This document shows positions 1,479 to 52,850 of a stretch of 64,000 bases of DNA, piece by piece (position 1 is the stretch's first letter; the number at the start of each line of letters is the position of its first letter). The translations under genes and the position numbers were made by a program. Origin of the DNA: Amanita rubescens (taxonomy: Eukaryota; Basidiomycota; Agaricomycetes; Agaricales; Amanitaceae). The notes beneath the pieces were generated by a model. It worked only from the letters and a program-made list of their open reading frames with translations, did not search any database and was not told the origin of the DNA. The stretch is from assembly GCA_015039365.1 (NCBI GenBank), contig WION01000151.1, forward strand, positions 1 through 64,000, read 5' to 3'.

Positions 1479-1605
1479 GGTCGGGTGTCACGACCGTCAC
1501 GCGTCACGCATACTAGTACAAGCATCACGACCATATACACTGGACTCCGTGATTAAAGTACCACGACTGTCGGCTTCAAGATGAAGTATGTAACATAATC
1601 TTTTG

Positions 1606-7059: not shown

Positions 7060-9550
7060 TCAATCGACTACCATGGGGCCAGAGCTAGCCTGCGAACTCT
7101 CCGCGCTGTCCAAACCGGATGAAGGAGAATGTGCTGGAGAGTACGCTAGCGCGCTGTCCTGCGACTCTTGGTTGAAAAACGTATCGTCGCAATGGATCTC
7201 GCTGAACTCAAGCGGCCGCTTGTTCCATTCGCTTTGAAATTGGGTGACGTGTTCTCCGCTCGAGAACTTGACCACGAGCCACGTCCCAAGTAAGACTTCG
7301 TCCTCTGCTTCCAGTTTTATAGAACAACGCGCTGTTTGAAGCCACGGTTCCTGCGACATCCAATACGTTAACTTATCAAAAGTTATCTTTGCATCTTCAA
7401 CATCGAAGGACACTGGCCCGATTTCAATGGGGTGCAAAGGAGGCGGGCTGGCGTCCTCGACATTTTCCAACAATCCCTTGAGTCTCTTGCGCTCCTTGCG
7501 CCGCTCGCCAGACTTCTTTCTTCGTTTAACCTTAGAAAGATCGGTAAACCAGGCAAGTCCCACTTTTCCGTCAAGTTTATGTCTCAGTTGACTTCCTGGG
7601 CCAACGTCAATATAGATCTTGCTGCGAGAAAGAGCCCCATAAATCAAGCGATTCCTGTGTATAAGCTTTAGGGTTTGCCGAAGAGCAAACCTGTTTTTAT
7701 CATCAATTCCAAACATTACTACAACTTATAAATAACATACTGTTGATGTTGTGTAAGCTTGGAACGCCCCACTGGTTTCCCAACATATTGAAGAAGCAGA
7801 ATAGCATGTACAGCCTTGTTATTATTTATAGCCGCGTCTCCCTTCAACGTGAAGAAGCCATAGGTTTTCGGAATCATGACATCCCGTCCTGGGAGACTGG
7901 ACAAAATCTCGTGTTTGCGATACTCTTTCATAAGTTGTTGAGTGTTTTGCCTTCCATTTGCAACTTTGATGACAACGGGCCACGATGCATAAGAGTGTCC
8001 ATCAGCATACAGCATTCCGACGAGTTCGTTTGAGTCCGTCTTGCCGCTAGTTTCAAGATAAAAGAATTTTTCTTCTTCTGCATCGACGGGTGGATGAATG
8101 CGGTGATATGGCCTATTGCTTTTGTACATGACGTTCCCCGACCCCTTCTTGGTTGACCCTAAGCAAAGTTTCATATATTTATGAACTACATCTTGAAACT
8201 GGGGCCTTGGAGTTCGGATCTATGTAGGACATAAGAGAACAGACATTATATCATAGGAAAATTAACATACTGGATTGAATTTACCGACGTTAAGATCGTA
8301 CGGCGTCATCCACGTATCAGGAAGTATATCCGATCTTCCTCCGAAATCTTCTAGCTGTCGTGCGCGGTTTGTCGCGTCCCGTATTGCTGAGATATATAAT
8401 CCAATGTGGATCTGAAAATACCCAGGACCGCCGGCCGTACCTTGCCCAATACTGTGAGGTTCGACGACGTCGCTAATGTATAAGGTCTGGTTTTGCCTGT
8501 CCCGGAAGAATAACAGTTCGTAATTTCCAGCGTGTAACACGGCATAAGTGGCGTCACACTTAACCATCTCTGCCCATAGCTGTCAAGCAGACGTAAGTCG
8601 ATTGATATAGCATAACAACATAGATAAACAACCTGTTGGATCATATCTCTCCCATGTCCTGTGTACTTCTTACGATCTTTGTCCGACATCGCGTCGTATG
8701 CCTCCTTTGTTTTCCCGTCCCAATCAGATATAATGAGATTGACGGCCGAGGCTATAGCATCAAAACCTCGGGGGTCACCCGTGATGGGCTCGCGACCGAG
8801 CCTTGGACCATGTTCATAAGCACAATATTCGGAGACACAACCCTTCCAAGGGAAGACATCCGCCAAAGTATGCCCAAGTATACAAAGCATGGTGTGATAC
8901 GATCCGCTGGGAAGACTCTTGCATTCAAATGGAATGATGCGCTCAAAGTACTTGGCGGTGATCTTCATATCTTCCAGTATCTGAGAATGTGCCGTCGACA
9001 TGGCCGAGTCGTGCTTGCTGAGATCTATCCTCAAAATGGAGTCTGCGTTTGCATAATTGCTTCTTTTACCCCGGCCAGAATCAGCATTCAGGTGAGCCGA
9101 ATCTGAGGTCGGCATTTCCAAAAACTGCGTTTTCCAGGAAGAAGACGGAAATTGAAGAATAGAGGCAATGGAAGCAATGTTCGAGAACACGTTGTGCTTG
9201 TATGCCGCAACAACGCTGGGTTCGTTGTGGAACCTGTGTTGAGCGTCTTCTTGAATTTTTGCTTCAATGTCTTCCGCCAATTTCCAACCCGATCCATGGG
9301 CAGGCGGGAGAGCCGCTTTCTCCAAGGCGACTTTTGCAGTCATACCCAGTTCCTCCGGAAGATTATGGCAAAACACCGTTTTCTTCAGCAATAGTCCTTT
9401 ACTGAGATGTAGGTCATAAGGAGCGGGTTTTCGTGTCGACTCGGAGCCTTTTCCGAGGCCTGTATAAAATGGTGGAGACAGCCGGAAAATTGCTTCGACA
9501 TTCTGACTAGGATCGGGTCCTTGCCCTTCTCGGGGAATGAACAAAGCCAA
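7060..9550 (-). CDS. F2 family protein: PD...ExK nuclease-like region plus pseudokinase, copy A
   Basis: Exons are about 9550-8633, 8579-8271, 8219-7741 and 7690-7060, joined by introns of 50-53 nt in frame; the start codon was not found and may lie in an upstream exon. The N-terminal region has A-D-S-I-L-R-I-D (Asp codon 9041-9043) and later P-F-E-C-K-S-L (Glu 8924-8926, Lys 8918-8920). This fits the D...ExK core of restriction-endonuclease-fold nucleases. The middle domain starts L-W-A-E-M-V-K. The C-terminal half looks like a kinase N-lobe with a Val-Ile-Lys strand, but the catalytic loop reads L-I-Y-G-A-L-S where active relatives have H-G-D-L-S, and no DFG is seen, so it is a pseudokinase. 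A Ser-rich tail ends the protein. It lies downstream of F1 copy B on the same strand. Nuclease assignment is inference. Confidence 0.65.
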
Positions 9551-10376
9551 GCTACAATGATCATGGGTAACAGCATACCGTCATTTGACGCCGGATTTAC
9601 TATCATGACGTCGGGGTCCATTTCACTTCGCTTGGAAAGGACTCAGACTCACTGCACGAGAATCAGCCCAGAACAACGTGTAAGTTTGAATTCCCTACCG
9701 TTTTTCTTCGAAAATTGAAGTATTTGACGGGATTGAGGTGGAATGGAAACTGAAGCAGGTAGCATCCTTCGCGCAAACCCAACCTTATTATATCTTCATT
9801 CGTAGAGGGCAAAATATCGCTGGTGATGAACAAGAAAGACAGCGCCTTCCAAGTTCGTACGCCGGAACGGCCATGAGTAAGACGGTGAGAGTGCACCCTG
9901 CACTATGCCTTGAATTGGCATAGTTCATTTACAGGAACGATTCAATTGTTGCACCGTGACAGTTCACTTGCCCGATTTGTAAGGTAACTTGACGTCGTCA
10001 AGGAACCTCACCATACTTATATGTACGTTACATGGTTACAATCAAACTCGATCAATCGATTGCGATCGCTTGTGGTGTTTGTGGGCTCCTGTTTTATGTG
10101 TGGAATTCGGCGGGTTGGCGAAAAGGAAATAAAAGCACAAGAGACCTGTGTTCATCTTGTGCTTTTGACTCTCATGCATCTGTACCAGCAAGCACGTGGG
10201 TGGTTAACAATAAATGTATATTGTCTCGGCGACAAAAATACCCACAAAATGTCACTACCAGTGTACAAAGCACGTTGGTATATGGTCTACGTACCGCGTA
10301 GAACCAAATAGAAAAATGAACACATGGAGACAGTGTTACATGGACTTGTTCAAGAGGTACAATTCAATATGAATTA
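9551..10376. other. Spacer between F1-B and F2-A
   Basis: This stretch holds the 3' flank of F1-B and the unresolved 5' end of F2-A. Reading the F2-A frame upstream of 9550 gives an early stop and no in-frame ATG, so the start must lie in an upstream exon that could not be fixed. Nothing else was recognised. Confidence 0.35.
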
Positions 10377-12648
10377 TCAAGGATCTTTCAGGAAATCACT
10401 ATCTGCACGAGAACTTTGCGTCGTAGGGTTGCTTGGAAACTGATTGGGCGGATAATAAGAACCCTGGAGAAGAGAACAGAGGTCATCGAATTCACGTTTC
10501 CGTGAATGCTTTCCTGCGCCCATCTTTGCCATGTCGAAATCGATGATTGTAACTTCCCCCTCGTCGTTGATAAGTAAGTTCATAGGCCGGATATCGTAAT
10601 GCCGAACATCTGCTCTATGTATTTCAGATAGTGCTTGCTTGAATGCTTCTCTGTACATGAGGTATAGATAAAATAATGTAAATGACAATGATCACGTACC
10701 GCTCTTCGCGAGACACAGAAACCTGCTCAACAGATACTTTCCCAGTCCTCTTCAGCTCCCGGTCATGGAGGCTAATGCCAACATCACTCATGATCAACGC
10801 TGACGACCCGTCTCTGACGTCTTCAAACAAGCCAAAAACAATCGCTACACACTCTACCCCCTTTTTAGCCAAGTGCTTGTATACATTGTATTCATGGCGC
10901 AAACGCTCTCTCTGGAAGTCGTGAAAAGCAACCTTAACAATGGCAGGAGAAGACAGTAAGCGTCCGTTTGGTAGGGTCATACGAATAGTCGCCTTGTGAA
11001 CCTGGCCCGTCGCGCCAGAATCAAAATCAGGTTTGAGGAGAACCTCAAAGTATTCGTGGGCTCGGTACTCTTGAGGACGCGGCTCTAACTTCAATTTCCG
11101 TTTTCCGTTATATGTACATGGTGTTCCGGGTGCTATTCCACAACCTTTACGCATAAAAGCTGATGGCGATGGCGAATTGAGTGGCATGTGTCTCATTTGC
11201 AACAATGCTAGGTGTCGCGTATCGCACTCGCGGAAGATCAACTGTGTTAGATGTCATTTCCAAGGATAAAAAGTATTTTAACCCACGCACGAGTTTCTCT
11301 TTCTCTGCCAACGTCGTGACGGATCGCGTTTTTGGACGCTTCTTCGTCTGGCGGTCGTCAGGTTCGGCTTGGGCCTTTCCTTCGGGAGTGAGGGATCCAT
11401 GACCCAATTTTCTGAACACACGCGCTCGCTCCATAGCGTCCCTAATAATCAATAGGTACAACCCAGTCTGGATCTTGCCGTACCCTGGATCTCGACAACT
11501 ATGGACATCAATGAGGTTAGACAGGAACAAGGTGCCCGTTTCACGGTGGCGCACCCCAATACGCTCATATTTACCACAGTGAAAGATGATAAAAGTGCTG
11601 TCATCCATGACGGATCTGGTCCACGCCTGTCATTATTAGTCGAATAAGAAATAATATGATAATATATGCTTACGTGGTTAATAAATGTTGTGACGTCGTC
11701 TACGCTGTCAGTGATCTTCTTGACCATGATCCCTTTAGAATGAGCAGATGAACTATTGTTCTGCGGCGGTTTTGTTAGCGCATTCTTCTCTTGTTCTAAG
11801 GAGACAACGGTTTGCTTCTCCTTAGAGCTATTGCTCCGTTTCGACTCGCGTGGTCCCCACGGCAATATAGTGCTATCCACGAGTGGCGTGAGAGGTAATT
11901 CCTGAGTCGGAAAACCAGAAACATGTTCTGGAATGGAAGGAACGGGTTCTTTTCCACATATCTCGTTCATTTTCTCCAGCAATTCATCGTATTCCGTGGT
12001 CGCCGCGCAGAATTGGTACGTGACCAGTCGGCGAAATCTTGCGAATATCTCGGCAAGGTCCGCACGAGCATCCTCATCGAGGGCATTCCATATCCCCCTT
12101 GGGACCTGCATATTCCCTGTATTATCGTCCCGTCGGATCTCGAGATAGCACTTGTTTGTTGTGGAGCTACGGCCCCCATTGGGTTCTATGCTAGCCCCGT
12201 TGAACCGGAAGATATTTAGCCAGGTATAACAATGGGGATTCAAAGCAAAGGTAGAACCGACAGAAGAGCAATAGAGCACTGAGACCTCTGTATAGAACCG
12301 CGCGACAGATGTAGCGTCCGTAAGTTTGTCTCCCGAATCGCCCCAGCTTCGTCCACTCTTCGAGAAGAACGCCGACCTCTCTTCTCCGTCCTTGTATCTT
12401 ATATCGGGAAGGCACCCCCCTTCATTTTTAGTTTCCAGCACGACGCGATCGATAACCTCGGCGATATCGGCTGTGAACGACGGAACGGAAACGACGCGCC
12501 GCAAAGAAAGTCGCGAATCGAGGTGACGATCAAAAAAGGTAAATGGAAGTCGATAAGGTGTTGAGTCATCTGCCTTCTCTATAGCGGGGGGACTGTAACT
12601 GAACAAATCCTGAAGCTCTCTGGACCAGGTTTGTTCGTGACTGGACAT
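10377..12648 (-). CDS. F1 family kinase-like protein, copy B (complete)
   Basis: ATG at 12648 (MSSHEQTWSREL); exons 12648-11674, 11626-11291, 11241-10700 and 10650-10377; introns of 47-49 nt; predicted 708 aa. The N-terminal region is homologous to the nuclease-like part of F2, but the motif position reads T-Y-Q-F-C (Gln codon 12013-12015), so it should be inactive. The middle domain starts A-W-T-R-S-V-M. The kinase-like C-terminus has a Val-Lys strand (P-A-I-V-K-V-A), a helix-C Glu (R-H-E-Y-N-V-Y), the catalytic loop VRHYDIRPMN and D-F-D in place of DFG, then a very short C-lobe without APE. HxDxxxxN and the metal-binding Asp are kept, so catalysis is possible. The gene lies between a receptor remnant (12.8-13.2 kb) and F2 copy A. 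Confidence 0.75.
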
Positions 12649-14618: not shown

Positions 14619-16446
14619 ATGGACCATGGTCCCGGCGCTGGCAGCGGCAACGATACCCTCTCATTACTACTTTCTATGCTCAATAACAAGGAGGTGCGCG
14701 TTATTGCAAAAGTGCGGAACGCACTCTGACGATAGGCCATAGCCTGAATCTTCCATCGCGTCTGTCGTAAACGCAACAACTATCGATCTTCTGTGCAATC
14801 TGTTATACCCTGAAGACTACGTCAACGTTGCCACTCGGATTAGCGAGACCTCAGACGTCCTGAATTTGTTGGATTTTATTCTTCATCTGCTTCGCGATCG
14901 AACAATTCCCAACTTCAACCGGCGGGCAAAACGGTTGATGTTAAAAATTATATCTACAAACCCCGTGATACCACGATCCTTGATTGTGACTGAAGTCGCA
15001 GTACCAGCAAAGCGCAATTACATTGGTGGTGGTGCATACGGGGGTGTTTGCAAGGGCGAATTACGCGGGGAGATCGTTGCGCTAAAAGTATTATACAGAA
15101 CCGGCGACAATGTTGTAAGTCCTTCCCGCCCTTGTTCCGTTCTTATTGTTGACGTTTGTTCTAACAGGCGTTCTGTCGAGAGGCATTGACGTGGGCAACG
15201 CTCAAGCACGAGTTTGTACTGTCATTCCTGGGAATTTATGAACAACAAGAGGAAATGTTCCTTGTCTCGCCTTACATGGAGAACGGCACGCTGGCCCAAT
15301 GGCGGAAGAACGCAAAACCATCTGTTAACGAGACATGGGAACGTGTATGGCTTTTTTTTTTGTTGCTCTTCGTTGATGCTCACCCCCGACAAAGATACTA
15401 GAGGTGGCTCAAGGCATGGAATACATTCATTCAGAAGGTGTTGTTCACGGTGACCTGCGAGGGGTATTCCAACTGAAGCATGATATTTTGAAATGTTGAC
15501 ACCTTTTCAGGACAACGTCCTCTTGGATGCCAATCTCCATGTTCAAATTGCAGATTTCGGATTAACCCGACTCTTGGACGCTACGAATACCCAATCGGGA
15601 GCAAAACATCTCAACTTTTCAGCCCCGGAGTTATTCGGATGCCTCGAGGATGCCGATGACCCCTCAGCTATTGAGCCAGCCAGAACGCAAATGTCAGATG
15701 TCTACTCATTTGGATGTCTTTATTATGAAGTGCGTCATAAAAACATACTGCTACCCTTGCTGATTTGGCCAGATCTATTTTGATAGAATGCCTTTTGCTG
15801 GTAAGCCAGAGGGACAGATCGTGGCCCTTGTTATTCGAGACAAGCGTCCAAATCGACTAGATGAGCCACCTTTGAGTGATGGGGAATGGGAGGTGATTCA
15901 GCAGTGCTGGGTGAGGGAACCAGGGAAACGACCGAGAATGAAAGATGTCATTGAAAGCCTGATTGCTACATCTCGGTCGATGTCTTGCTCATCTTTACTT
16001 TCTTTGATCAACGAGGTACGCGACGTCGCGAAGCGCAAGTGCACTCTATTAACAGGCTTTAGGCCACATCTTCCATGGTGTCTCTCGCAAATATGACAAC
16101 TACTATCAACTGTTTTGACCCATTTCCGAGGGAGACGACGTATCCCCATGTCGCTCCCCACTTGTCTATGCCCGCACCCGGGCCTTCGTTCGAGTCCGGC
16201 AGCAGACGTAGGGTGGGCTCGCTCCTCAACGCAATATGGTTCAATCATCACCCTTCAAAGAGAAAACGGCCAGCAAGCGACGATAGTATTCCTAACAAGT
16301 CGCCTAGGAAGGGCGGGACAGCGGAAGGCGCTAGTGCAAGAAACAACGGTGAAAGAAGGTGCCCGTCAGCATTCATTATCTCGTTTTGCTCACGTCTAAC
16401 CAGTACGACAGGGCTGAACGAGCGTTGTCGCCCTCCGAATCTCTAG
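14619..16446 (+). CDS. TKL-type protein kinase with a degenerate start of a second kinase unit
   Basis: Seven exons with all introns in phase 0: 14619-14693, 14743-15114, 15168-15344, 15395-15463, 15511-15729, 15773-16015, 16063-16446; predicted 512 aa. A Leu-rich N-terminus (S-L-L-L-S-M-L-N) and a helical SVVNATTIDL segment precede the kinase. Motifs seen are a Gly-loop (I-G-G-G-A-Y-G-G-V), VALKVLY, VHGDLRG at the end of exon 4 joined to DNVLLD in exon 5, IADFGLTRL, a S-A-P-E motif and a C-lobe D-V-Y-S-F-G. All core catalytic residues are present, with HGD instead of HRD. Exon 7 begins A-T-S-S-M-V-S-L-A-N, which looks like a decayed copy of the exon-2 start, then becomes a basic tail (K-R-K-R-P). 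It is paralogous to the double kinase at 54.6 kb. The substrate is unknown. Confidence 0.8.
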
Positions 16447-16965: not shown

Positions 16966-18245
16966 TCTTGTGGGATTTCTCAGCCGCTGTTGCTTATACG
17001 AGAGTCAGATGATCTAGAAGCATGTCTATATATCGATTTGGAACTCTCAACCCGGGATGTGACAGGCAGCCTGACATTAATGAATTTCTGATGTAGATGG
17101 ATGAGATCCGTGATCTCCGGTAGAGAAACAATACATTCACATGTGTGAGCATCGCAATATATGTCGGGTGCCTTCTCGTTATCTGGAACTTCTCAATCGA
17201 ATCGGCCAATCGAAAAGTGTTCTTTTAGCAGCGAAAAAATCCCACAGTGAGCGATGTGCTGATTGAAGATGGCCCGTTGCGGGGAAGGACCGCGTAGCTT
17301 GCGTCTGAATCTCCAGATGTTCGAATGAAAAGCTATAAAGCTGCTTCAATCTGAAGGGATCCAACCAACCAACAACCAACCTGACAGTTTGCGCTCTCTA
17401 CTCTAAGCATTGTATGCCAGCTGCTTGTCTTCGATACTGTCCACTCGCTCACCAGAGTCATCACCATTTCTATGTTATTCAGATGCCGAAGGTCAAAGTT
17501 CTCATTGATAGAGACGCGTTAGAAACACTCGTGGGCCGTGATTTCAATCTCTGCCTCACGAGGGACGTAAAAGCTGGTCCAAAAATACTTAAAGGAAATG
17601 TCGTCTTCGCTATGGTTCCTAACAAGAGTCTCGGGCTCGAGGTGAAACTGGAGTGGGAGGACAAGTATCAAGTCTTCGAAACGATGTCGTACCAGGTCAG
17701 TCTGCACCTATTTAGTCATTAATTGCCTCGCTAAGATGTGCATTTATTATGTAGGAGGGCGCCAAAGTCACGTCTGGCACCAAATTTGCCGACATTAAAT
17801 TAGGCCAGAAGGCCACGTTTGATAATCATGGTGACGGCAGAGTCATTGGTGATGTAGACCAGAATAAGCCACTCGGAGTCCAAAATGATTGGAGGGAGGA
17901 TGCCCGCGTGGGGGTCAGGAGCTTCAACCCCATCACTGACACTTACCATTCTCTCTTCCTATCGTCCAAAATTCTGACTGATATGACGAGCGAGCTTACC
18001 CCGATCAAGAAATTCTCCATCTTCTGGCACCAGTATTTGGTAACCGACACCATCATCGACAACGCTGTCTCCGATCCTTTCGTATTTGAAATGAACAGAG
18101 ATGAGATCACAATTAAATATGCGAAGGAGCAGCCGCACTGGTCGTTCGTGTAGTTGATCGCGATGTTGTATTGTTAGTCTACTGTTGAATAGGCCGATGA
18201 TGCATTTGTAAATTGCGGAATTATAACCTAATAGCAATACAAATC
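16966..18245 (+). repeat. 1.3-kb segmental duplication, copy 1 (partner about 30957-32310)
   Basis: The segment starts with gtgggatttctcagccgctg and ends after the short unknown gene at 17483-18153. The same order, including the 5' flank with the repeated aaccaacaaccaacc tract, is found at 30957-32310. The promoter and gene were copied together. Confidence 0.75.
17483..18153 (+). CDS. Short unknown protein H, copy 1
   Basis: Two exons, 17483-17695 and 17755-18153, with a 59-nt intron; predicted 203 aa. It starts MPKVKVLIDRDALETL. Conserved features in all copies are G-N-V-V-F-A-M-V-P, W-E-D-K-Y-Q-V-F at the end of exon 1, and F-W-H-Q-x-L-V-T-D-T and P-H-W near the C-terminus. The protein is rich in predicted beta strands, with no signal peptide, helix bundle or catalytic motif. 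An upstream ATG at 17414 is in frame but is preceded and followed by leader-like sequence kept in copy 2, so 17483 was chosen. Another copy lies next to an aegerolysin gene. The family was not recognised. Confidence 0.65.
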
Positions 18246-20561: not shown

Positions 20562-20995
20562 TATACTTGGGCAAACAACTAGGACAATAAAATACCCATG
20601 GACCCACAAACATCCATGCGCTCGTCTGCCTAGGAAGGCAGCTGTCACGGATCTGGGAGAACAATGCTGGACGGCGGACGCCGGCTGTTGCCTCCTTCGC
20701 ATGCTACATGACATCGGTAAAGAAAAACTACGTAAGAAGGGCGACATAGGCGATGGGAGCGAATCTTTAGAATGTGAGCAGGCTTATTTTACGCCGTCAA
20801 AATCTACAAGTCATTTACTGCGCGCGCCTTCACTACGCATCGTATCTATCTCAAAGGACTGTGCGCCTCATAAAACGGTTCATATCTGTCATGATCACGT
20901 CAAATCGCATCATAGAACTATTGCCCGTGCCAGAAGCCTATGCATCTTTGTGGGTCCATGAGTATTTCTGATGTCTAGTTGTTTGTCCAAGTATA
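20562..20995. mobile_element. MITE-like element with about 55-bp terminal inverted repeats
   Basis: The left end TATACTTGGGCAAACAACTA and the right end, read on the other strand TATACTTGGACAAACAACTA, continue as imperfect inverted repeats for about 55 bp through a CATGGACCCACAAA block. The outer TA pairs fit a Tc1/mariner-type TA target. The 434-bp element has no transposase. The left half recurs at 32540-32835 and, inverted, at 39990-40285; the right part recurs at 40505-40626. The interior overlaps the edge of the F2/F1 duplication at about 20.9 kb. Confidence 0.65.
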
Positions 20996-21296
20996 CCTGA
21001 ATAGTATTGCTGTCCAGTGATCGACGGATGCTATCGTGTTACAAGCCAAAATTAATACAATTTTTGATTAATCAAGCACCAGTGATATTTCAAGGGCTGC
21101 CCCAGAGTGGGTTTCTCGTTTTTGATATTCACGGCTGTGTTGAAAAATGACACGCACACACAGTATCCATGGTTTCGCGATTTGCCCTTCACTTCTGAAG
21201 GTGGAACTAGCTACCCCGGTGCTATTGTGCCTAATCGATGCTGCGAGAAGTATAAAACCTATAATTGGATAATTGTCGCTTTTGACGACTTCCAGC

Positions 21297-23883
21297 ATGC
21301 CCCTGACGTGGTTCATCCTAATTCTCATTTTCGGGAGCATTCATCTATTTGTTCAGATACTCCGGTTCATCCCAATTCTCATTTTCGGGAGCATCCGTCT
21401 ATTTGTTCAGACACTCCGGTCTACGATTGGCCATATTCTCGCGACGAGGAAAGGATTCGTTGACGAGAAAAACCCAAGTTCTGATACGTCGACGCCTCGG
21501 ACAAAGAAAATTGCTACTTCTGGTAAATGCGTAGATCGTAAAAGCAAAGCGGCACCGGGTAAATGACTACATGATGTACGCATGAAATCAGCGCTGAATC
21601 ATCTAACAGGAGTGGTTAACAGATACATTGTGTCTGACGATGACCAGGTTTCGACTCCTGAGCCGGATGACCTTGACAACATACAGAAGATTTTTAGGCT
21701 AGGGTTAGACGGACCCTATAAACGTGCAGTTGATCATTCAAAATGCAGTTCAACTCGCGAACCAGGATCCTATGATAGGCACCTTGACATCAATTTGAGG
21801 CCGACGAAAGTCGCCTATTGCTCCAACATATCAGCGCAGCTCGCAGAAGTGGCAAAAAGGCGCTACGAGGAATACAAAGGGAAATTAGGCATGCCTCCTG
21901 AATGCGAAGAAACCAACTTCAATCATGTGCGCAACTTACTTGAGGGCAAGAAAGTTGTCGGATCAGAGGACGCGATCATCGATGATTATGCGAAGACGAT
22001 GGGAGAAGCGATCCTGCCTATAGTTTCAGCACTTGCGTTTGAAACTCCCTCGTGGAAACCGAGGTATATAGAATGGAAGAAGGATCACAAGCAAGACATG
22101 GCTATTCCGGATGCGAGCATACGCATAAATCTCGGTATCCTGCCACCGGAAGACAGCTCGCACGATTGTCCATATACCAAGATAACGAAAAAGCCATCAG
22201 ACCGAAAGAGAAGACAAAGTGCCCTTCTCGACGGTCTTAGATGTTACATTTGTGACAATCCCTTCCCAGAGAAGTTGAACGATGTCGCGGAGTATTTTGC
22301 CGATATCGTACTTTACGAGTTCAAGAGCCTCGCGTCCGGAACTTTTCAACATTTAACTGCATTACTGGAGCAGACTTGTCATGGCGACTTTTGCTGGAAA
22401 GGATGTGACGAGCGTTGTTCGCATGCCAGGCTCAACACCCCGGTGACGGGTCGCCCAACCGGGTTTGATGCGGAGAATCCTGTCATTCGATTGACCGCCA
22501 GTGATTGGGGAAAGACTGACGTTGGACGTTCACTCGGCACATCCCGGCCGCTTGTCATACACCGCAAAAATCACAAGGAATCAGCCAAGCGTATGATACA
22601 ACAGGTGAAAAGCGCATTAATGCAATAGTTGATCGAACTAACTTGATACGTAGATATGGTCTGAAATGGTGAAGCACGATGCAACATTTCTGGTTCTCAA
22701 CAGCGGAAACTTTGAAATTATTGTTGTTCGTGACCGTGGAAACAGGACGCTTTATCTAAGTGACCTCATTGTCACTGCCGATCCCGGCTATTTTCAGATC
22801 CACGTCGGTCTTTTTATTGCTGCAATTCAAGATGCCATAGATCGCGCGACACGACTGAATGCAAGCAAAGTCGCCAATGACCTCCCTTCCTCATGGACAG
22901 GATATGTAAAACATCGTCGCACCAAGGCTCCTGACGTAGAGATAGGCCCAATTGATATTGAAGAAGTACTATCGAACTGTCGAGAACTCTCCCTGTTCCC
23001 CCGGAAAGGTGCCGATGATCCCGTACCCTACAGGCACTGGAACTTGTACGAGCGTAGTCCAAAAGAGCAACTTGAGGAATCCCATCCTCTGATTATACGG
23101 ACTAGAGCTAGCGATGACTGGAACATTTTTGTGGGCAGCGTGGAATTGTCAGGGAAAGCTTTTGAAGATTGTGTTGTCGTCAAGACTGCGCGCGGAAAGT
23201 ATGCCACACGAATACTTTCAGAGGAGTCCTCTGCATATCGCTCACTCAGCGAAGACCCTCAAGAATGTAAAATTGCTCGTATGTATGGTTTTTTCGTGAG
23301 TTCTCTGGACAAAGATGAGCCACACGCTGTCTTGTTATTGGAATATTTGGGAAAGCCTTGGTATCAATGTTCTGGACAATTGTCAAGTGATCAATGGTAC
23401 GAGGAATGCGATTGTTACGGATGAGGCACTTAGACAAGGAACAGGAAAAGCCTGAACAGAACTAAATATTATATGGACAAGCGACATTATGAATACGGGA
23501 AAATAGACGAGAAAAGTGTTGTAATCGCACGTGGTGGAGATGACATCAAGTCAGATGTCTTTTTGGTGGGGTTAAGCAAATGTGTACGTTCTTCGGCCGA
23601 GAAGACTGAAAAATGCCGTCCAAGAAATTGGGGACCATCGATTCATCTCGGTCCTATTACAAACCCCGTGTCGGCCAGTGCAACTCGAGTATTCAAAGAG
23701 GTCACGGCGTGGACAAAATTCCCGCCAACAGCACGCTGCTTGAGTTGGGTGGATAACTTGCCGGATTGGTTGGAGATTGATATCTCTGGGGAGGATGCAG
23801 AGGAATTCGAAGAGTTATGGAATGGGAATCAGAGACCTGCCTATCTAAGAAAGACTGTATGTATGGTTTATAAGGCAGCATGA
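21297..23883 (+). CDS. F2 family protein: PD...ExK nuclease-like region plus pseudokinase, copy B
   Basis: Exons 21297-21558, 21610-22604, 22654-23396, 23439-23883 join in frame; introns of 51, 49 and 42 nt remove all internal stops. The first ATG (21297) is the best visible choice; exon 1 gives two 18-residue hydrophobic repeats and then a basic linker. The nuclease-like region has A-I-P-D-A-S (Asp 22110-22112) and L-Y-E-F-K-S (Glu 22317-22319, Lys 22323-22325), after W-K-P-R-Y-I-E-W. The middle domain starts I-W-S-E-M-V-K. The kinase-like half keeps V-V-V-K-T-A, a helix-C Glu and a hinge L-L-L-E-Y-L, but the loop reads H-Y-E-Y-G-K-I-D and the DFG site V-G-L-S-K, so no catalytic Asp is left. 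A C-terminal domain follows (W-V-D-N-L-P-D-W-L). F1 copy C starts 136 bp downstream. Nuclease activity is inferred only. Confidence 0.7.
21310..21417 (+). repeat. Two tandem 54-bp units in the F2-B first exon
   Basis: Units 21310-21363 and 21364-21417 each start gttcatcc and contain attctcattttcgggagcat. Each adds 18 codons in frame, giving a hydrophobic repeat (I-L-I-F-G-S-I). The duplicated copy at 41 kb has a single, more diverged unit, so the tandem arose after the segmental duplication or was lost there. Confidence 0.8.
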
Positions 23884-24019
23884 TGATTGCTCGGCGCTGC
23901 TAGTTTAAAATTATCGTTCAACGTTTACGTTTATGACTGTAAGCCTCTGTATGCACTTGTTATGACATTTACTAGTTTCCAACTGATGCACTGATGAGTT
24001 ACACGTCTCAAAAAACGTT

Positions 24020-26322
24020 ATGGCACGCCGGAAGGTCTACGAGGAAATAGCCGCTCTCTTCGATTATAACCCCCCTACGACTACACTTTCAGAGGAATCG
24101 GGTATCACCTTCTCATATCCAAATGTATTCTATGACCGGCACCTGGATCCCCGCCTTTGCCTGAAACATATCAAAGCTGCTCCATCCCTGTCTCTCGAAC
24201 TTTCCAAACTTGTCGAGGACGAGCTGATAACTCTGAAGAGCAGGGGTCAACCCCTTCCCTTTCTCAGAAATGAAGGCTGTTGTTTCGTCACGGAGAATAA
24301 CAGAAAAACTTATCCGCCGCGTACGACGATCTGGGATGCTGAATCCGTTGCTCAGTTTTATTCCCGCGCTTCTTACAAGAACTGCGCTCCTGTTGCTTCA
24401 ACTATCGCATTATACCCTTATGGAGAAGCATGGTATAAAATTCTAGATTTTTGCGAAGGCTCCGAACTCGAACGTGGTCAACATCCTGCGATGATCGACA
24501 ATTATATTTTGCAGATCTCCCATCGTCATGAAACGGGAGAGTTGACGACATCTAAGGCAATCTCGTCGTGCCTCAAGGACGATCTTCGCCAAGACATTCG
24601 GGCGATGTCGGACAGATTTAGAACATTGGCCGCCTTCCAGTTTCACGTTCCGTCGATAAAAGCGGAAGATTTATTCAGAGATATGGGTGTGGTCGCAAAA
24701 TGGAGCAGGTTACCCTTGCTACAATGCCCCACTGTTGGTCTTGTCGTGTCACAGAATGCCCTGCCATACCCACTGCCCGACTCTTTAGCAACTATAAAAT
24801 CACTTCCTTGTATCATGGCACCTTGTGCATCGACGCAAGCGGCCCGTCGCAGTACTCGTCTCAGCTCTCGAAGTGAAGGGCGGTCGGAATCGGTTTCAAG
24901 CACAGGGCGGGAGGGCCAGACGAGTCGAACAAAGGTCAAGGCATGGCCTACGTTAAATGTGAAGCCTACCAAAGTTTCGCGCCCCAACTCTCTTCTGTTT
25001 ATCCAACGTGTAGGTACTGAAATTATGAGTATTACACCTTCTCATGATTAACTGCAGGCCTGGACCCGCGCTGTACAGTATGATGCTACGTTGATTGTCT
25101 TCAATTGTGGAAATTACGAACGCATCGGATTTCGACATCGCGATAGTCAGACACTATATCTTTCGGACTTGATAGACGTTTCTGAATGTTTTGAACCTGG
25201 TTATGGTCAGATACAAATTGGTTTATACATGGCAATCTTACGAGATGCGCTTGATCGAATACGTCACCAAGTTGGACTCGAGGCCGAGAGCACAACAACC
25301 AAAGCTAAAAGGAAGCGATCAAATGACGCGGAATACGCAGATGCGAACCGCGAGTCCAAGAGGCCTAGGACTAGGCTGACGACCTCCGGAAAGCAAATGT
25401 TCCAGGAGTCTCCTGAAGATATGCACTCAGTGACTAATATATTCTATGTCTTTTTAGTAAACCTCTAACCTTTGTATTAGCTAGTACTCTGCGAAACGGA
25501 TTGCAGGGATGTGGTACTCCTCTGGTTCAAATATGGGGTGTTCAATTCTCCGGAGCCCGCTGTCCTACATCGCGTTGGCCGTTCATCAGATGGTCAACCA
25601 CGTTTTACTACTAGAAAGGAGCGAAAATACCGTCCTGAGGACTACTTCCGTTTGACGCTAACGTCAGAAGTGGCAGAAGGAGCGACAGGAAAAGTCCACG
25701 ATGCCAAGATTGAGGTTCAGGCAAGCGATTGTCGCGTTTATAGTTGTGAAGGAGTCGTCAAAATTGCACTTGGGAATAAAGAACGAGAGAAGCTACGTCA
25801 TGAATGCGCTGTATATCGACACATGATGGTCAACAAGGTCAATCACGTCGTCTCTGTATATGGCCTTTTTGAAGATGCAGCGAATGAAGCCACCGTTCTC
25901 GCCATGAGCCACGCAGGGACGAGTTTGGCCGAGCAACCGCACTATATAGAACATGGCCAGGTCAGCTTGACCGAAGAACAAAAGTAGGCATGGAACGTAC
26001 TCTTGCATCTTTTTCACACTCACAATTTGTCAGGGAAGCGTTCATAACAGCGATGAGGGAAATACACCAAGCTGGTGTCCGCCATTACGATATTCGTCCC
26101 AACAATTTGATGATGGACGACCAAGGCCGAGCAACCATAATCGACTTTGACATGGCGAAAGTTAAGGCCGGTAAACGATCTCGTCAGCGAGAGTTTGAGC
26201 ATCTCGGTTATCTTCTCGACGAAAGTTATGACCCGCCGAATCAATGGGAAAGTCCCCCAACTTCCCCATCCGCTAGATTCCCACCAGCGGATGACGACAT
26301 CATTTATGGACGGATTTACTAA
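24020..26322 (+). CDS. F1 family kinase-like protein, copy C (complete)
   Basis: Exons 24020-25009, 25058-25429, 25481-25983 and 26034-26322, introns of 48-51 nt at the same places as in copies A, B and D; predicted 717 aa. The N-terminal region starts MARRKVYEEI and has Y-D-R-H-L-D. At the nuclease motif it reads A-F-Q-F-H-V (Gln codon 24638-24640), so Glu and Lys are lost. The middle domain is A-W-T-R-A-V-Q-Y-D-A-T followed by a Lys/Arg-rich nuclear-localisation-like stretch. The kinase-like end has V-V-K-I-A, R-H-E-C-A-V-Y, VRHYDIRPNN (Asp codon 26089-26091) and I-I-D-F-D-M-A-K, then a short C-lobe. Catalysis is plausible although DFG is DFD. Downstream partner of F2-B on the same strand. 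Confidence 0.8.
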
Positions 26323-26524
26323 TTCAAGTTCGTATTCTATTGCCGCTCTATCTGGCACAAGATACCATGTCGTATATAACTACGTTGCATGTATATATTA
26401 ATATATGTTAGTAATGTACCACACCATATCCAGGGATTCGAAAGCCTGAGCCTGGTGTGGTCTTCGAAAGTTGGCCTTGATCCATGTTTGGCCGCTACGC
26501 CCACCGAATAATCTTGCTCCAGCG

Positions 26525-27465: not shown

Positions 27466-28146
27466 CTAGGGAGGAGCTTTCGTCCAATGCGGTTTCTCCT
27501 TGCCATATATGAGCTTAGCCATATTGCGATGGTTGATTTCGAAAACGAAAGGGTCGGCGATAGTGTTCAAGTCGGTTATGGTGTCCGTTACCAACTGCTG
27601 GTGCCAGAAGACGGCGAATTTGTTAGTCGGGGTTAGTTTGACCGTCATGTCAGTGAGAATTTCTGGGGATAGGAAAAGGGAATGGTAGGATTCGTCGGTG
27701 GGGTCGAAGTTCCTGACCCCCACACGTGCGCCTTCCTTCCAGTCATTCCTGACGTGGAGTGGCTGTTTTACGTCCTCTCCACCAGTGACATCGGCTCCAC
27801 CTATAACATCGAATGTGGCCTGCTGGCCCAGTTTAATGTCGGCAGTTTCGGTGCCAGCCGTGACTTTCGAGCCCACCTACATAATGATCACCTTCCGGAT
27901 CGATCGGTGAGCGAATAGGTGGAGACTGACCTTATACGACGTCGTTTCGAAGACTTGGTACTTGTCCTCCCATTGGAGGGTCACGCCACGGCGTAGGTCC
28001 TTGAAGGGAACCATAGCAAAGACAACGTTTCCTTTGTACTCCACATCACCAACCTCCACCATCCTAACTATGCAGAGATTGAATTCACTGCCGATGAGGG
28101 TCTCCAAGGCCTCCTTTTGGATGACGACTTGAACGACGGTCGACAT
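27466..28146 (-). CDS. Short unknown protein H, copy 3
   Basis: Exons 28146-27931 and 27876-27466 with a 54-nt intron at the same codon as in copy 1; predicted 208 aa. It starts MSTVVQVVIQKEALETLIG and keeps the G-N-V-V-F-A-M-V-P, W-E-D-K-Y-Q-V-F and F-W-H-Q motifs. It is more diverged than copies 1 and 2, lies on the opposite strand, and is followed on the same strand side by the aegerolysin gene 570 bp away. An in-frame ATG exists at 28218 but its leader is not conserved. The function is unknown. Confidence 0.65.
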
Positions 28147-30956: not shown

Positions 30957-32310
30957 TGTTTATCTTCTCGTGGGATTTCTCAGCCGCTGTTGCTTATACG
31001 ATGATCTACTATAGAAGCATTTCTATATATCGATTTGGAACTCTCGACCCAGGATGTGAGTCGTGACAGGCTGCCTGACATTAATGAAGCTCTGATGTAG
31101 CCCTAGTACTAGCACTGCCTAGATTGATGAGATCCGTGAGCTCCGGTAGAGAAACAATACATTCAGATATGTGAGCATCGGAGTATGTCGGATATGTGTT
31201 AGGATTCTGGGGTACCTCCTCCTTCTCGTTATCTGGAACTTCTCAATCGAATGGGCCAATCGAAAGTGTTCATTTAGCAGCGAAAAAATCCCACAGTGAG
31301 AGTCCGATATGTCACCTGGCCACAGTGGTATTGGGACAACGTGCAACCCTCACTGGCACGCTTGATGTATCAAGCTTTATGGATTGGACGTTGTGCGGCG
31401 TCTGAATTTCCGGATGATCGAATGAAAAGCTATAAAGCAGCTTCAATCCGAAGAGATCCAACCAACCAACAACCAACCCAACAGTTTGCACTCTCTACTC
31501 TAAGCATTGTATGCCAGCTGCTTGTCTTCGATACTGTCCACTCGCTCACCACCCTTTCTATGTTATCCAGATGACGTCGAAGATCAAAGTTCTCGTTGAC
31601 GGAGACGCGTTAGCAACACTCATGGACAGTGAATTTCAATCTCTGCCTCACGAGGGACGTGAAGGTTGGCACAAAAGTGCTCAAAGGAAATGTCGTCTTC
31701 TCTATGGTTCCTACCAAGAGTCTCGCGCCCGAGGTGGAACTCGAGTGGGAGGACAAGTATCAAGTCTTCGAAACGACGTCGTACAAGGTCAGTCTGCACC
31801 TATTCAGTCATTGATTCCCTTGCTAAGATGTGGATTTATTATGTAGGCGGGCGTCAAAGTCTCGTCTGGCACCAAATTCGTCGACATGAAATTAGGCCAG
31901 AAGGTCACGTTTGACATTCATGGTGCCGGCAAAGCCGTTGGTGAGGGGGACCAGAGTAAGCCACTCGCAGTCCGAAATGATTGGAAGGAGGATGCCCGCG
32001 TGGGGGTCAGGAGCTTCGACCCCATCACCAACACTTACAATGCTCTCTTCCTATCGCCCCAAATTCTGACTGATATGACGAGCGAGCTTACCCCGATCAG
32101 GAAATTCTCCATCTTCTGGCACCAGCATTTGATAACCGACACCATCATCGACGAGACTGTCTCCGATCCTTACGTATTTGAAATGACTGATGATGAGACC
32201 ATAATTAGATATGCGAAGGACAAGCCACACTGGTCGCGCGTGTAGTTGATCGCGGTGTTGTTGTTAGACTACTGAATAGGCCGATGATGTATTTGTAGAT
32301 TGTGAAATTA
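30957..32310 (+). repeat. 1.3-kb segmental duplication, copy 2 (partner 16966-18245)
   Basis: It is colinear with copy 1 from gtgggatttctcagccgctg to the end of the H gene. It differs by small indels, including the frameshift in the H coding region. Confidence 0.75.
31571..32245 (+). pseudogene. Protein H, copy 2, with a one-base frameshift
   Basis: Exon 1 spans 31571-31787 and exon 2 31847-32245. Compared with copy 1, exon 1 has one extra codon and one extra base; the insertion lies at about 31628-31634 (gtgaattt here, gtgattt in copy 1). Before it the frame gives MTSKIKVLVDGDALATL, after it N-L-C-L-T-R-D-V-K-V-G continues in another frame. Exon 2 is fully open and conserved to P-H-W. It is a recent pseudogene unless the base is an assembly error. 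Confidence 0.65.
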
Positions 32311-32539
32311 TTCAGTGGTCTTTGTAAGCACTCTACTGCCTCTACAGTGTGTCAGTGAGCTGCATTCCCCGCAACCACTTCAAAACGAGTCGGCCTCCTA
32401 AACTTGGGCAGATACGTCACAGCATATCAGTGTTCTAGTTATTGATGCGCATCAATGCATCAACGTCAACGGGCATCAAAACATCATTGGCTCAATAAGG
32501 CCCAATGTCGACGTCAACGTTTCAACTTCCAAGAACAAT

Positions 32540-32835
32540 ACCATGACTTGGCTACTTATACTTGGGCAAACAACTAGGACAACAAAATACCCATGGACCC
32601 ACAAACATCCATGTCGCCTTGGAAGTCAGAAAGGGAAGCTGTCACGGATCTAGAAACCGAGGACGCCGGACGCCGGCTGTTGCCTCTTTCGTATGCTACA
32701 TGACACGCGGTAAAGAAAAACTACGTAAGAAGGGCGAAGGAGGCGATGGAAGCGAATCTTTAGAATGTGAGCAGGCTTATCTTACTACGCGGTCAAAATC
32801 TATAAGTCATCTACTGCGCACGCCTTCCTTCAAGT
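32540..32835 (+). mobile_element. MITE, left half
   Basis: It matches the first about 280 bp of the MITE at 20562, starting ttatacttgggcaaacaact and running through gtaagaagggcga to the actgcgcacgcc tract. The right terminal repeat is missing, replaced by the F2 pseudogene. Confidence 0.6.
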
Positions 32836-34423: not shown

Positions 34424-35851
34424 TCATGCCTTGTTACTGGCAATTGATCGCTTTGAAAACTTTTCTCTTAGCTGCCTCTCTACTCTTTCGTTCCAACCAT
34501 AAGTCAACGCGTTCGCTAAACCTACTAGTTGTGAAGTCAACTGCAGAAACTGCATCACAGTGCTTGAATGCCCAGTTGCCTCAATCAACCGATTGGCAAT
34601 GGCAGGAAGCCATAGTATGATATACGCCAATGGGTACGCATTGAGGAGGAGCGCTTTGTGAACTGTCAAATATGGGGTGTCTGCGGACAAATCGCTACCC
34701 GATCGGCTTGCTCGTAGGCCCGATATGCGCGAGAACCAATGAAGCGCGCGACAGGGCTTATTTTGTCGGACCAAGGTAACTGAAGACGTGGATGACTTGT
34801 TGTCTTGCTGTTCGCCCACGTCAACAGCCTGAATTGATGCCTCTGATATAGAAGAACCCAGAGTCGAACCTCCGTAGGGTTCGCAATGAGCGGGGGGAGG
34901 ATCAGGATTCCACGGTGGTATACTCTTTGCCCACATTCCATAGTGCCGCCGAAGATGAACATCCTTTAAATTGAATCATTAAAGATTGTGACGCAAGACA
35001 ACTATTGGAATTCGTACCATATAGATGAAGAATCCAATCTAGTTGGTATTAGCATGGAAGTAGGTCAGCGGTGAACTGAGGCATACCTCCATAATAATAA
35101 ACAAGAAACGCCAGCCGTGAGTCAGCACGTAACGAAGATACTTTGGATTTTCTTTTATCCAACACCTGTCAATACACGCAGACCCCTCAGTTCTGTACCA
35201 CGTAAACGACAAAAGACATTTACCGGCTTCCCGTGACTGGGCCATACCATCCCATCCCTAAGGCCAGGAACCCTGTGGTAAGGAATAAGTTTCAGTATTT
35301 TTCGGTGCGTACAGTGCGTCGTACCTGTGAATAGGGGTAAAGCCCATATAGAACAACTAAGTAACACGATTCGTTCGTATAGCCTTCTTGGTGAGAACGT
35401 TGATTCAACTGTCCCCCTAGTGATTGCATATACTGTAGTTATTGTAATCGCCAGGATAGAGCAATCGGTAGCCTTTCGTCATGTCAGCTCGACCGGCAAA
35501 TTTCCATGTATTGAATTACCTGAGAGGTAACCTGGCCGACAAAGCCATTGAAAACGCACGCACAACCTGGATCTAGATTTGTCCTGTGTACCAGGACGTA
35601 TGAGCTGATAGCAATGTTGTTTACGGCATGAAGAAAGTCTACAATTCTGTCAGCCTAGTCGTGATATAGCAAAGCATGAGAGGACGTCTACCGGTCACTG
35701 TTAGGTTGAGAATCAAGATGTGGCGAAAATGGCCGTCGAATGGTAAGATGGTGTAGCACACCAATATGAATGCAGAGCCGCTGACGGATAAGATGTTCGT
35801 ACTGGCCGTCACTGCTGCCATCGCAATCTGGACCGTTGATGCTTGGGACAT
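34424..35851 (-). CDS. Seven-helix receptor, Git3/cAMP-receptor-like, copy G3
   Basis: Start MSQASTVQIAMAAVTAS at 35851; stop at 34424. Exons encode helices in order: helix 1 (F-I-L-V-C-Y-T-I-L), H-F-R-H-I-L-I-L-N-L for helix 2, then N-G-F-x-x-Q-V-T, a T-D-C-S-I-L-A-I-T-I helix, L-S-C-S-I-W-A-L-P helix 4, H-G-W-R-F-L-F-I helix 5, a long Ser-rich third loop, and Y-P-L-A-Y-I-I-L-W plus G-L-A-N-A-L-T-Y-G-W-N helices 6 and 7. This layout fits fungal G-protein-coupled receptors related to Git3 and the slime-mould cAMP receptors. The ligand is unknown. Exon joins were checked only in part. It lies upstream of F1/F2 pseudogenes on the same strand. Confidence 0.55.
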
Positions 35852-36697: not shown

Positions 36698-38137
36698 CTA
36701 TCGGCTTGCAAATTTCTCTTTCAGCAGTTCCGCAACTTTTTCATTCCAGCCGTAGGTCAACGCATTTGCTAACCCAATTAGCTGTGCAGTCACCTGCAAA
36801 AATTGCATCGGGATGCTTGAACTTCCAGTTGCCTCGATTAACCGATTGGCAAGTGCAGGAATCCAGAGTATGATGTACGCCAACGGGTAGGCATTAAGTA
36901 GAAGTGCCCGTTGAACTGCCTGGTGTTGTGTATCTGAAGAGAAAGAGCTAGCTGTTTGGCTTGTTCCCCGTAGCCCCGATATGCGGGAAAACCAATGAAA
37001 CACGCGGCGGGACTTGTTTTGTTCAATTAGGCCTACGTTGGACGCCTCACTGGGACTGGCGGCGTATCTGTCATGTGCCCCGCCCAGCTTTTCACCCGCA
37101 TTGAGAACGTGCATTGAGAATCCGCCGACGGGAGGTCGCATGGCTGACTCACGCCTTGGTTCATCAAAGGCGATACGAGAAGCCATGTTTCGTGATGAAA
37201 TGCTCTCCGACACCATTCGATAGTGCCGTCGAAGGTGGATATCCTTTAGAACAACTCGTCAAAGATAACAACGCTTTCTCATTGTTGAAGATACGAACTA
37301 GATAGATGAAGAGTCCAATCTAGTTCGCGTTAGTGTCGGAGTTAGGCTAGGACCAACTGTAACGTGCCTCGATGAAAATAAACAAGAATCGCCAACCGTG
37401 CATTAGCACGTAACGAAGATAAACTGGCTTGGCTTCCAACCAGCACCTATTGAACCATCGCAAAAATGTCAGGTCTACAACATGTAACCACCAAGATGGC
37501 ACTAACCAACTTCCCGAGACTGGACTGTACCATTCCATCGCCAGGCCCAGGAATCCTAGAGTAAGAATTTGTTTCAGCGTCCTTTGGTATGAGACTTTGA
37601 CCGCACCTGTGAAGATAGGTAATGTCCAAATACTACAGGTGAGCAGCACTATCCATCTCCATTCCCATCGTCCTCCTGACATTGATGATATAGTTGCCCT
37701 CTTAGTAATCGCATATACCGTAGTTATTGTAATCGCTAACACAGCACAATCCGTCGCCTATATATCATGTCAACTTCATTGATAGGGTCAGGACACATTG
37801 AATTACCTGAACGGTAACCTGAGTAGCAAAACCGTTGAAAACGCAGGCAGGGCTACGAGCCAAATCTTTCTTGTGCGAAACGATGTACAGATCGGGGACA
37901 ACGTTGTTTAGGGAATGAAGAAAGTCTGTTCGTCTATTAGCTGGCACAGTAATGGAAATACATTAACGGTCGCCTACCGGATGTTGCGAGATTCAGAATC
38001 AAGACGTGACGAAAATGACGGTCGAACGGTAGAATGGCGTAGCAGACCAAAATGAGTGCCGAGCCAATCAAAGACATGAGGCCCGCACAAGCCGTCACCG
38101 CTGCTATAGCAATCTCGACCTTGGATGCCTGTGCCAT
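36698..38137 (-). CDS. Seven-helix receptor, Git3/cAMP-receptor-like, copy G2
   Basis: Start MAQASKVEIAIAAVTAC at 38137; stop at 36698. The first intron splits the S-A/N codons after L-N-L-A-T-S, giving A-N-R-R-T-D in exon 2. Helix motifs follow the same order as in G3, ending Y-P-L-A-Y-I-I-L-W-I-P and L-T-Y-G-W-N-E-K-V-A. The third loop contains Ser-rich and basic stretches. It lies in tandem with G3. The frames look intact, but the loop exons were not fully resolved. Confidence 0.55.
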
Positions 38138-39891: not shown

Positions 39892-39989
39892 TGTCCGCTT
39901 GTAGATTTGTAACCATGAACTATGAATCGTTTTATTGCAGTATATGAGGCGTACAGTCCCCTGTGATAGTTACGATTCGTATTGAAGGC

Positions 39990-40285
39990 GCGCGCGGTAG
40001 AGATTTTGACCGTGTAGTAAAATAAGCCTACTCACATTCTAAAGATTCGCTTCCATCGCCTCCGTCGCCCTCCTTACGCGGTTTTTCTTTGCCGATGTCA
40101 TATAGCATGTGAAAGAGGCAACAGCCGGCGTCCGGCGTCCAGCATTGTTCTCTCATCGGTTTCTAGATCCATGACAGCTGCCCTTTCTGACTTCCAAGGC
40201 GGACGGGCACCGTGACATGGATGTTTGTGGGTCCATGGGTACTTTGTTGTCCTAGTTGTTTGCCCGTGTAGTATAAGTAGCCAAG
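39990..40285 (-). mobile_element. MITE, left half, inverted
   Basis: The reverse complement matches 32540-32835, for example ggcgtccggcgtccagcatt and the outer tagttgtttgcccg end. With the copy at 32540 it flanks 7 kb in inverted orientation. Confidence 0.6.
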
Positions 40286-43522: not shown

Positions 43523-43648
43523 TCAGCGGTGTTTATTATTATGGGCCTCTGTATATGCTTGCTATGACATGGACTAGTTTTGCAACTTCTTTGTCCAAGC
43601 GCTGCACATCTGGGCTTGCAAGACGTCGACGACGGCTCGAAAAACCTT

Positions 43649-52625: not shown

Positions 52626-52850
52626 TTCTATTTTGTATTTATAAAGCTGTCATATAATGGAACGGCCCCACGTTACACCAGCGCATCCAAGAAAACCACT
52701 CTAAACCTGCTGCACGCCACTTCCCCGGATCCGGAGTTGCCTCTTATACCTTGTTTGTATCTGTTTGTTGTGATCAACGGATCAACACTCGAGTCAACCA
52801 ACCGTTACGGTAACCTCGTCCCTTCCTCCAGGCTCCCATTTCTTGATATT

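Follow-up and report, generated by a model that had tools for sequence, protein, structure and literature searches.

A 64,000-nucleotide stretch of the Amanita rubescens genome, which forms the start of contig WION01000151.1 (here C59) and is called the window below, carries two neighbouring genes, F2_A and F1_A, whose predicted products share one layout, a nuclease-like half followed by a kinase-like half, and appear to have kept opposite active sites. The genes were compared with each other, with the rest of the A. rubescens assembly (75.7 Mb, 786 contigs) and with database proteins. All gene models are computational and were made without transcript evidence, and in this first pair (pair A) the 5' exon and the last splice of F2_A are best guesses; the annotated A. 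rubescens protein P0002, which is the same gene as F2_A on the allelic contig C770, has the same Met start and includes the 5' exon. The features of pair A are these:

20894 to 26419, no strand: duplication unit holding F2 and F1 alone, about 5.5 kb, with a copy at 40509 to 46045 that is 77.6% identical (self-BLASTN)
21297 to 23883, plus strand: F2_A gene, exons 21297 to 21558, 21610 to 22604, 22654 to 23396 and 23439 to 23883; 814 amino acids, open frame, GT-AG introns
22110 to 22325, plus strand: nuclease site of F2_A, Asp at 22110, Glu at 22317 and Lys at 22323 (PDASIRIN ... LYEFKSL)
22595 to 22675, plus strand: Q-W motif (MIQQ/IWSEM), spanning a conserved intron of F2_A and found at the same place in F1 and in F3, a family of single-gene relatives described below
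23485 to 23577, plus strand: predicted pseudokinase of F2_A, with YGK for HxD and LVGL for DFG
24020 to 26322, plus strand: F1_A gene, exons 24020 to 25009, 25058 to 25429, 25481 to 25983 and 26034 to 26322; 717 amino acids, open frame, GT-AG introns
24626 to 24652, plus strand: degenerate nuclease site of F1_A (LAAFQFHVP), with Gln at 24638 for Glu and His at 24644 for Lys
26080 to 26151, plus strand: kinase catalytic loop and DFD of F1_A (RHYDIRPNN, HYDIRPNN from 26083; DFD at 26143 to 26151); Pfam Pkinase, E 4.2e-9

Measured against its copy, the duplicated unit takes in about 400 bases ahead of F2 and about 100 beyond F1. The original prediction had placed the gene pair at 20895 to 26322; by self-BLASTN the unit starts within one base of this and ends 97 bases further, at 26419. 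The 5' exon of F2_A (21297 to 21558) also holds a hydrophobic stretch made from a short tandem repeat (MPLTWFILILIFGSIHLFVQILRFIPILIFGSIRLFVQ), which is present in P0002 and absent from the model of F2_B, the F2 gene of the copied pair.

F1 and F2 are homologous end to end, a profile-profile comparison having aligned them over 538 columns (E 1.6e-28), and the common domain layout claimed for them in the original prediction is thereby upheld. The introns that follow the Q-W motif and precede the kinase catalytic loop lie at the same places in both and, judged by frame changes, in F3 too. By these comparisons F1 and F2 are paralogues, both open and intron-bearing.

The nuclease half of F2 reads PDASIRIN...LYEFKSL or alike across the F2 rows of a single alignment, and motif reading on it found the D, E and K of the site in 20 of 20 rows (four of our models and 16 database proteins; P0004 and P0005, which come without the nuclease half, were left out). 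In the kinase half the Lys of VVK and the αC Glu are retained, HxD is replaced by YGK, YGR, YGA or YDK, and the first Asp of DFG is gone. F2_A itself has YGKIDEKS, from 23494, at the place of the catalytic loop and LVGL, at 23563 to 23574, at that of DFG; F2_D has HGA and LTD at the HxD and DFG places; and all five F2 groups, A to E, are without both the HxD Asp and the first DFG Asp. In F1 the loss is complementary. Across 23 F1 rows, with gapped positions excluded residue by residue, the nuclease Lys is found in 0 of 21 scorable rows, from Mycena to Amanita, and the Glu in 2 of 22, that position holding Gln in window copies A and B and Asn, Ile, Ala or Glu elsewhere, while the Asp of HxD and the Asp of DFD are kept in all 22 scorable rows. 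The catalytic residues expected of a PD-(D/E)xK enzyme, D...(D/E)xK, are present in F2 and not in F1 (Lys 0/21); those of a protein kinase, namely the VAIK Lys, the αC Glu, HxD and a DFG-type Asp, are present in F1, together with a kinase fold in its predicted model. Each of the active-site states that the original prediction had named was confirmed at the positions listed above: D...ExK kept in F2, with its kinase loop and DFG lost; Gln for Glu and no Lys in F1, with HYDIRPxN and DFD kept. The complementary loss proposed from them recurs in two further pairs of the window, B (41127 to 45954) and C (12648 to 7060, minus strand).

These pairs, and other F1 and F2 sequences of the window, are the following:

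41127 to 45954, plus strand: pair B, F2_B (41127 to 43522) then F1_B (43649 to 45954), open frames; F2_B agrees with the annotated protein P0001, the same gene, except for one intron
7060 to 12648, minus strand: pair C, F1_C (12648 to 10377) then F2_C (9621 to 7060), open frames
183 to 1487, minus strand: F1_D, truncated by the contig end; its F2 partner adjoins on C179 (read as L069), C195 and C770
38711 to 39596, plus strand: broken remnant, the start of F1_E and then F2_E-like pieces with stops
46449 to 46847, plus strand: remnant of the 3' end of F2_E

Throughout the assembly, F2 was found only beside F1: all 15 F2 places have an F1 on the same strand, with 0.14 to 1.4 kb between the search hits, in a count that omits two remnants in C59. 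F1 occupies 20 places, of which 15 are paired, one is at a contig end and four are alone. Only one of the four, C545, reads as intact; the frame of C438 is broken by a deletion of 10 bases and an insertion of 17, and C319 and C331 have stops. Among the 15 pairs, intactness was read in three of the window (A, B and C), and that of F2_E on C179 was judged from its annotation. In the C770 copy of F2_A the match is split by about 320 bases, and the annotation of P0002 stops at 496 residues. Decayed remnants lie in the window at 33.5, 38.7 and 46.5 kb.

F2 precedes F1 in pairs A and B, and follows it in pairs C, D and E. Divergence among the linked pairs reaches about 70% of residues, and the protein distances of F1 and F2 across pairs A to E are correlated (r 0.93), with 3 of 120 label orders giving a value as high, the true order included. 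The tree topologies of F1 and F2 also agree for pairs A, B, C and E, which is weak evidence, as this is one of only three possible quartets. Two further claims of the original prediction, that F2 is linked to F1 and that the two were duplicated as one unit, hold on these data, with 15 of 15 F2 places linked on the same strand, a self-BLASTN unit that holds the pair alone, and matching F1 and F2 distances. One and the same locus carries pair E on C179, C143 and C770 and pair B, flanked by E remnants, on C59. The region as a whole was found on four contigs (C59, C179, C195 and C770), with scores that differ for the C and D pairs; a dikaryon would give two haplotypes.

An F1 query of the same genome also identified ten solo loci of a third family, F3, several of which look allelic to one another. 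They begin with a nuclease exon, marked by D and by SEFK, NEFK or WEMK; a Q-W exon follows, and a kinase bearing HGD and DF[GS] comes last. HGD and DF[GS] are each present in 10 of 10 loci, and ExK is intact in seven of the nine loci covered at that place, with Gly for Glu in C340 and C1. The nuclease D was read in eight loci and is Gly in C650, and of the eight loci with both read, five (C190, C60, C112, C35 and C299) have both D and ExK. C35 has a small gap within the catalytic loop. In L076/L078 (C340, C1), L077 (C650) and L073 (C35), one nuclease residue or part of the kinase loop is lost and the rest retained. The nuclease exon of F3 aligns with that of F2 (E 3.9e-13), and in a tree of 26 rows F1, F2 and F3 each fall on one side of a branch with bootstrap values of 99 to 100. 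The tree being unrooted, the ancestral state is read from the active sites. Because single F3 genes carry both sites, the F2/F1 pair appears to divide between two proteins the two activities of one.

The halves that have lost their catalytic residues do not look eroded. Ratios of nonsynonymous to synonymous substitution (dN/dS), estimated by the Nei-Gojobori method (NG86) from pair A against pair B, a single pair of paralogues, run from 0.16 to 0.48 and are below 0.5 in every stretch. For F2 they are 0.43 in the nuclease exon, 0.27 in the QQ-to-kinase stretch, 0.16 in the N-lobe and 0.28 in the C-lobe of the pseudokinase, and 0.40 in the tail; for F1, 0.32 in the dead nuclease, 0.48 in the linker, 0.30 in exon 2 and 0.20 in the kinase. 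Because the values are low in all stretches, the degenerate halves of both proteins look retained under constraint. The description of these halves as decayed in the original prediction is refuted by the open frames, whose GT-AG introns sit at matching positions, by dN/dS below 0.5 and by the conserved D, E and K.

The kinase assignment of F1 is backed by family and fold comparisons. In a search of solved structures by sequence, the best 60 of 831 rows for F1 are protein kinases. In Pfam, F1 matches Kdo above the cut-off; its kinase part also matches models of PD-T4-6, Mad6, PglW, Kdo and Bud32, among others, in PADLOC and NCBIfam, the NCBIfam matches lying below cut-offs. F2 has no match in Pfam, where F1 matches mainly kinase-type families, or in PADLOC or NCBIfam. 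The structure model of F2 was unusable (predicted local distance difference test score, pLDDT, 35). That of P0006, an A. rubescens F1 (pLDDT 78.9), has a kinase fold preceded by N-terminal strands and helices in an order compatible with an alpha-beta-beta-beta-alpha-beta core. Apart from a few viral rows, the fold-search rows listed for it are kinases or proteins that carry a kinase; a DUF5898 protein of a Pandoravirus gave an alignment of 443 columns.

Further searches showed relatives of F1 in Amanita phalloides, Hypsizygus, Mycena, Sphagnurus, Termitomyces, Tephrocybe, Tricholomella and Tricholoma (18 hits, including one from A. rubescens and one without a species name). Among the 8000 candidates scored per search, F2 was found in no named species beyond A. 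rubescens, the remaining matches being without species name, and A. phalloides, with two F1s, gave no F2 among these candidates. In a tree the F1s of A. phalloides fall among the A. rubescens ones. Since none of the 21 scorable F1 rows from Mycena to Amanita keeps the Lys, the loss of the F1 nuclease is apparently old and predates this pair, which rules out a recent duplication after which each copy lost one of the halves. F2, for its part, may be of recent origin, restricted in range or lost, or it may evolve too fast for the search to detect it.

On the evidence of motif states, linkage, co-duplication, constraint and bifunctional relatives, F1 and F2 are, as far as their sequences tell, the two halves of a nuclease-kinase that is a single protein elsewhere. 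New here are the F3 genes with both sites, the finding that F2 is always beside F1 while F1 may stand alone, and a copied unit that consists of the pair only, with different pairs at one locus. A single protein of this kind is the spore-killer protein SPOK, which is described in passages of PMC6660238 as a PD-(D/E)XK nuclease and a kinase in one chain, the kinase being likened to Kdo-type kinases. By analogy we infer that the pair works like a SPOK divided into two linked genes, and we tentatively suggest, as a possibility somewhat short of an even chance, that it is a split poison-antidote system in which F2 is the nuclease poison and F1 the kinase antidote. F2 would damage DNA or RNA in any exposed nucleus, and F1, acting in trans, would neutralise it by phosphorylation, either of F2 or of the F2 target; the dead nuclease of F1 and the pseudokinase of F2, whose folds would be conserved for this, would dock the two proteins together, and tight linkage would hold poison and antidote together. 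F1 alone would then be a harmless resistance locus and F2 alone would not be tolerated, and the pair would persist in the long-lived dikaryon as an incompatibility element or a selfish one. The pattern expected of such a system, a poison never seen without its antidote and an antidote sometimes alone, is found in this genome, the latter half of it by one intact locus (C545). More doubtful is the full form of the proposal, a killer element of a basidiomycete formed by the partition of a SPOK-like single protein into a killer-only F2 and an antidote-only kinase F1, each keeping the other's dead domain as a docking surface, with pairs that segregate as haplotypes at one locus and with a surviving bifunctional form, F3.

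The main rivals are a complex in which nuclease and kinase cooperate, and tandem paralogy that persists passively. In the former, the kinase subunit would activate or target the nuclease subunit, for defence against viruses or transposons or as an effector, much as the kinase-like domains of Ire1 and RNase L activate or target a nuclease. Such a heteromer predicts no special asymmetry, yet F1 stands alone, intact at C545 and in other genera, and no place has F2 without F1; nor did this analysis yield any sign of physical interaction between F1 and F2. Because F2 was never seen without F1, the poison-antidote explanation fits better than a heteromeric effector, which is a possible if rather unlikely one. 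In the latter, F1 and F2 would be tandem paralogues with separate jobs, each working alone and travelling together only through block duplication. Linkage can persist passively, the pairs stem from few events, and other Agaricales have F1 without a detected F2, all of which would suit this explanation; the linkage, however, has survived although up to about 70% of residues diverged and the gene order changed, and stray pieces of F2 within the window are incomplete or broken, and we regard this explanation as unlikely. That these are decaying effector or kinase-family genes whose function is gone is highly improbable and largely refuted, for although copies do decay, as the three remnants, the broken solitary F1s (C438, C319 and C331) and perhaps the C770 copy of F2_A attest, pairs A, B and C have open frames and splice sites, dN/dS is low in all stretches, and D, E and K are kept in every F2 row, 13 of the 20 being from sources other than named species.

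Several points weigh against the poison-antidote proposal. C545 is, on its sequence, the sole intact unpaired F1 in the genome, which thins the asymmetry between an F1 that may be alone and an F2 that never is, and the C770 copy of F2_A may be broken beside an F1 that is still present. The contigs resemble several haplotypes of one region, so that the 15 places amount to about five independent pairs, A to E. Seven other genera, as well as A. phalloides, have F1 but no detected F2, which would mean that F2 was lost there, was missed, or is non-obligatory, and F1 must, on this evidence, have another role too. In F3 the nuclease site has been lost without any pairing in alleles L076 and L078 (C340 and C1, E to G) and L077 (C650, D to G); F3 alleles with single-site losses are possibly resistance-only states of the single-gene form. 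The PD-(D/E)xK type of the F2 nuclease is deduced from motifs, from their conservation and from the predicted order of secondary structure in F1, without a structural match: no PD-(D/E)xK chain is among the fold-search rows shown for the F1 model, which centre on the kinase and barely test the rest, and in the sequence search of solved structures the F2 profile gave only a chance-level match (E 0.31), as did the F3 nuclease exons (E 0.14 and worse). The cysteine cluster of SPOK, C-x3-C-x13-C-x5-H-x7-H, was found in none of 55 sequences, fragments included, even as a relaxed pattern; SPOK is an ascomycete system and this one is from a basidiomycete, and the two are likened by motif. With the cluster absent and the likeness one of motif only, F2/F1 is not classed as SPOK.

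Other elements lie around the pairs. A repeated element of about 390 bp, at 20588 to 20970 and again near 6707 to 6799, 32425 to 32827 and 39943 to 40293, adjoins F2/F1 pairs; its ends look, by eye, like inverted repeats (ATACCCATGGACCCACAAA and a near reverse complement), in the manner of a miniature inverted-repeat transposable element. A gene family with three copies, one of them inverted, surrounds the pairs (17301 to 18224, 27532 to 28101 and 31398 to 32311), and the frames tested gave no Pfam match. A second family also has three copies (14651 to 15974, 54798 to 56139 and 56244 to 57512), about 68 to 69% identical in DNA, and the two frames tested gave no Pfam match. Minus-strand frames related in DNA recur at 34427 to 34975, 36701 to 37258 and 47148 to 47792, the first and third of which fall just below the Pfam cut-off for the C-terminal domain of a fungal glucose-sensing G protein-coupled receptor. 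One open frame at 52626 to 54206 joins, by Pfam, an isochorismatase domain to glutathione S-transferase N- and C-terminal domains, an odd fusion.

Among known systems, RNase L and Ire1 each have a kinase or pseudokinase domain fused to a nuclease in one chain. They differ from F1/F2 in nuclease fold and in being single chains, and no sequence relation to F1/F2 was shown. FunK1 proteins are expanded fungal kinases, and canonical FunK1 genes in this genome (L010, L021 and L027) read KPDIV...APFEFKT...QLARYAL before the kinase, which is PD-(D/E)xK-like. Membership of FunK1 (PF17667) was rejected: the last exon of F1_A scored 18.7 of the 24.1 bits needed, full-length F1 and F2 gave no PF17667 hit, with F1 below the Pfam cut-off and F2 without a match, and a profile-profile comparison, a weak test made with a two-sequence profile, gave no link. 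The word "nuclease" is absent from the text of the FunK1 paper PMC3203195. Among CR (Crinkler-type) proteins, about one C-terminus in six couples a restriction endonuclease (REase)-superfamily domain to a protein kinase (Zhang et al. 2016, cited in a passage of PMC5289972), and the coupling of an REase-type site to a kinase is shared here at motif level. The present proteins differ in being split into a complementary pair and in having nothing that points to secretion or a host target, and no Crinkler header was detected: Pfam hits to E 1 on P0001, P0003, P0006, P0010, P0012 and P0019 include no such family, and the exons of F1_A and F2_A (5' exon of F2_A excluded) gave none.

The closest likeness is to SPOK. 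A split SPOK-like pair is not mentioned in the titles and abstract openings of the papers listed, from searches of which none was worded for one, and spore killers are spoken of in ascomycetes in a passage of PMC9972908. SPOK is one protein and the present system is two linked genes, known from sequence alone. At motif level, the SPOK order of a nuclease and then a Kdo/ELK-like kinase in one protein is the state of F3 (passages of PMC6660238, PMC9972908 and PMC12693581). Spok3 K240A is described as retaining resistance and losing killing, and Spok3 D667A as toxic, with rescue by the wild type in co-transformation (PMC6660238, in part); F1 resembles the resistance-only state of K240A and F2 the killing-only state of D667A. 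In SPOK, as far as these sources go, killing is thus separated from resistance by the nuclease Lys, which is lost in F1, and the kinase Asp, which is lost in F2. SPOK copies also vary between strains in Podospora and Fusarium, as alternative pairs do here. According to passages in PMC12693581, it is among the greater mysteries of SPOK genes how one protein can act as poison and antidote alike; in many other systems the two roles fall to separate linked genes or to isoforms. Should the poison-antidote proposal fail, a co-inherited nuclease-pseudokinase and kinase-dead nuclease, both constrained, would still be an unusual division of labour. If it is true, this would be a killer element in a mushroom, and with the two activities on separate proteins and a bifunctional relative in the same genome, the target of the kinase and the docking of the two proteins could be studied directly.

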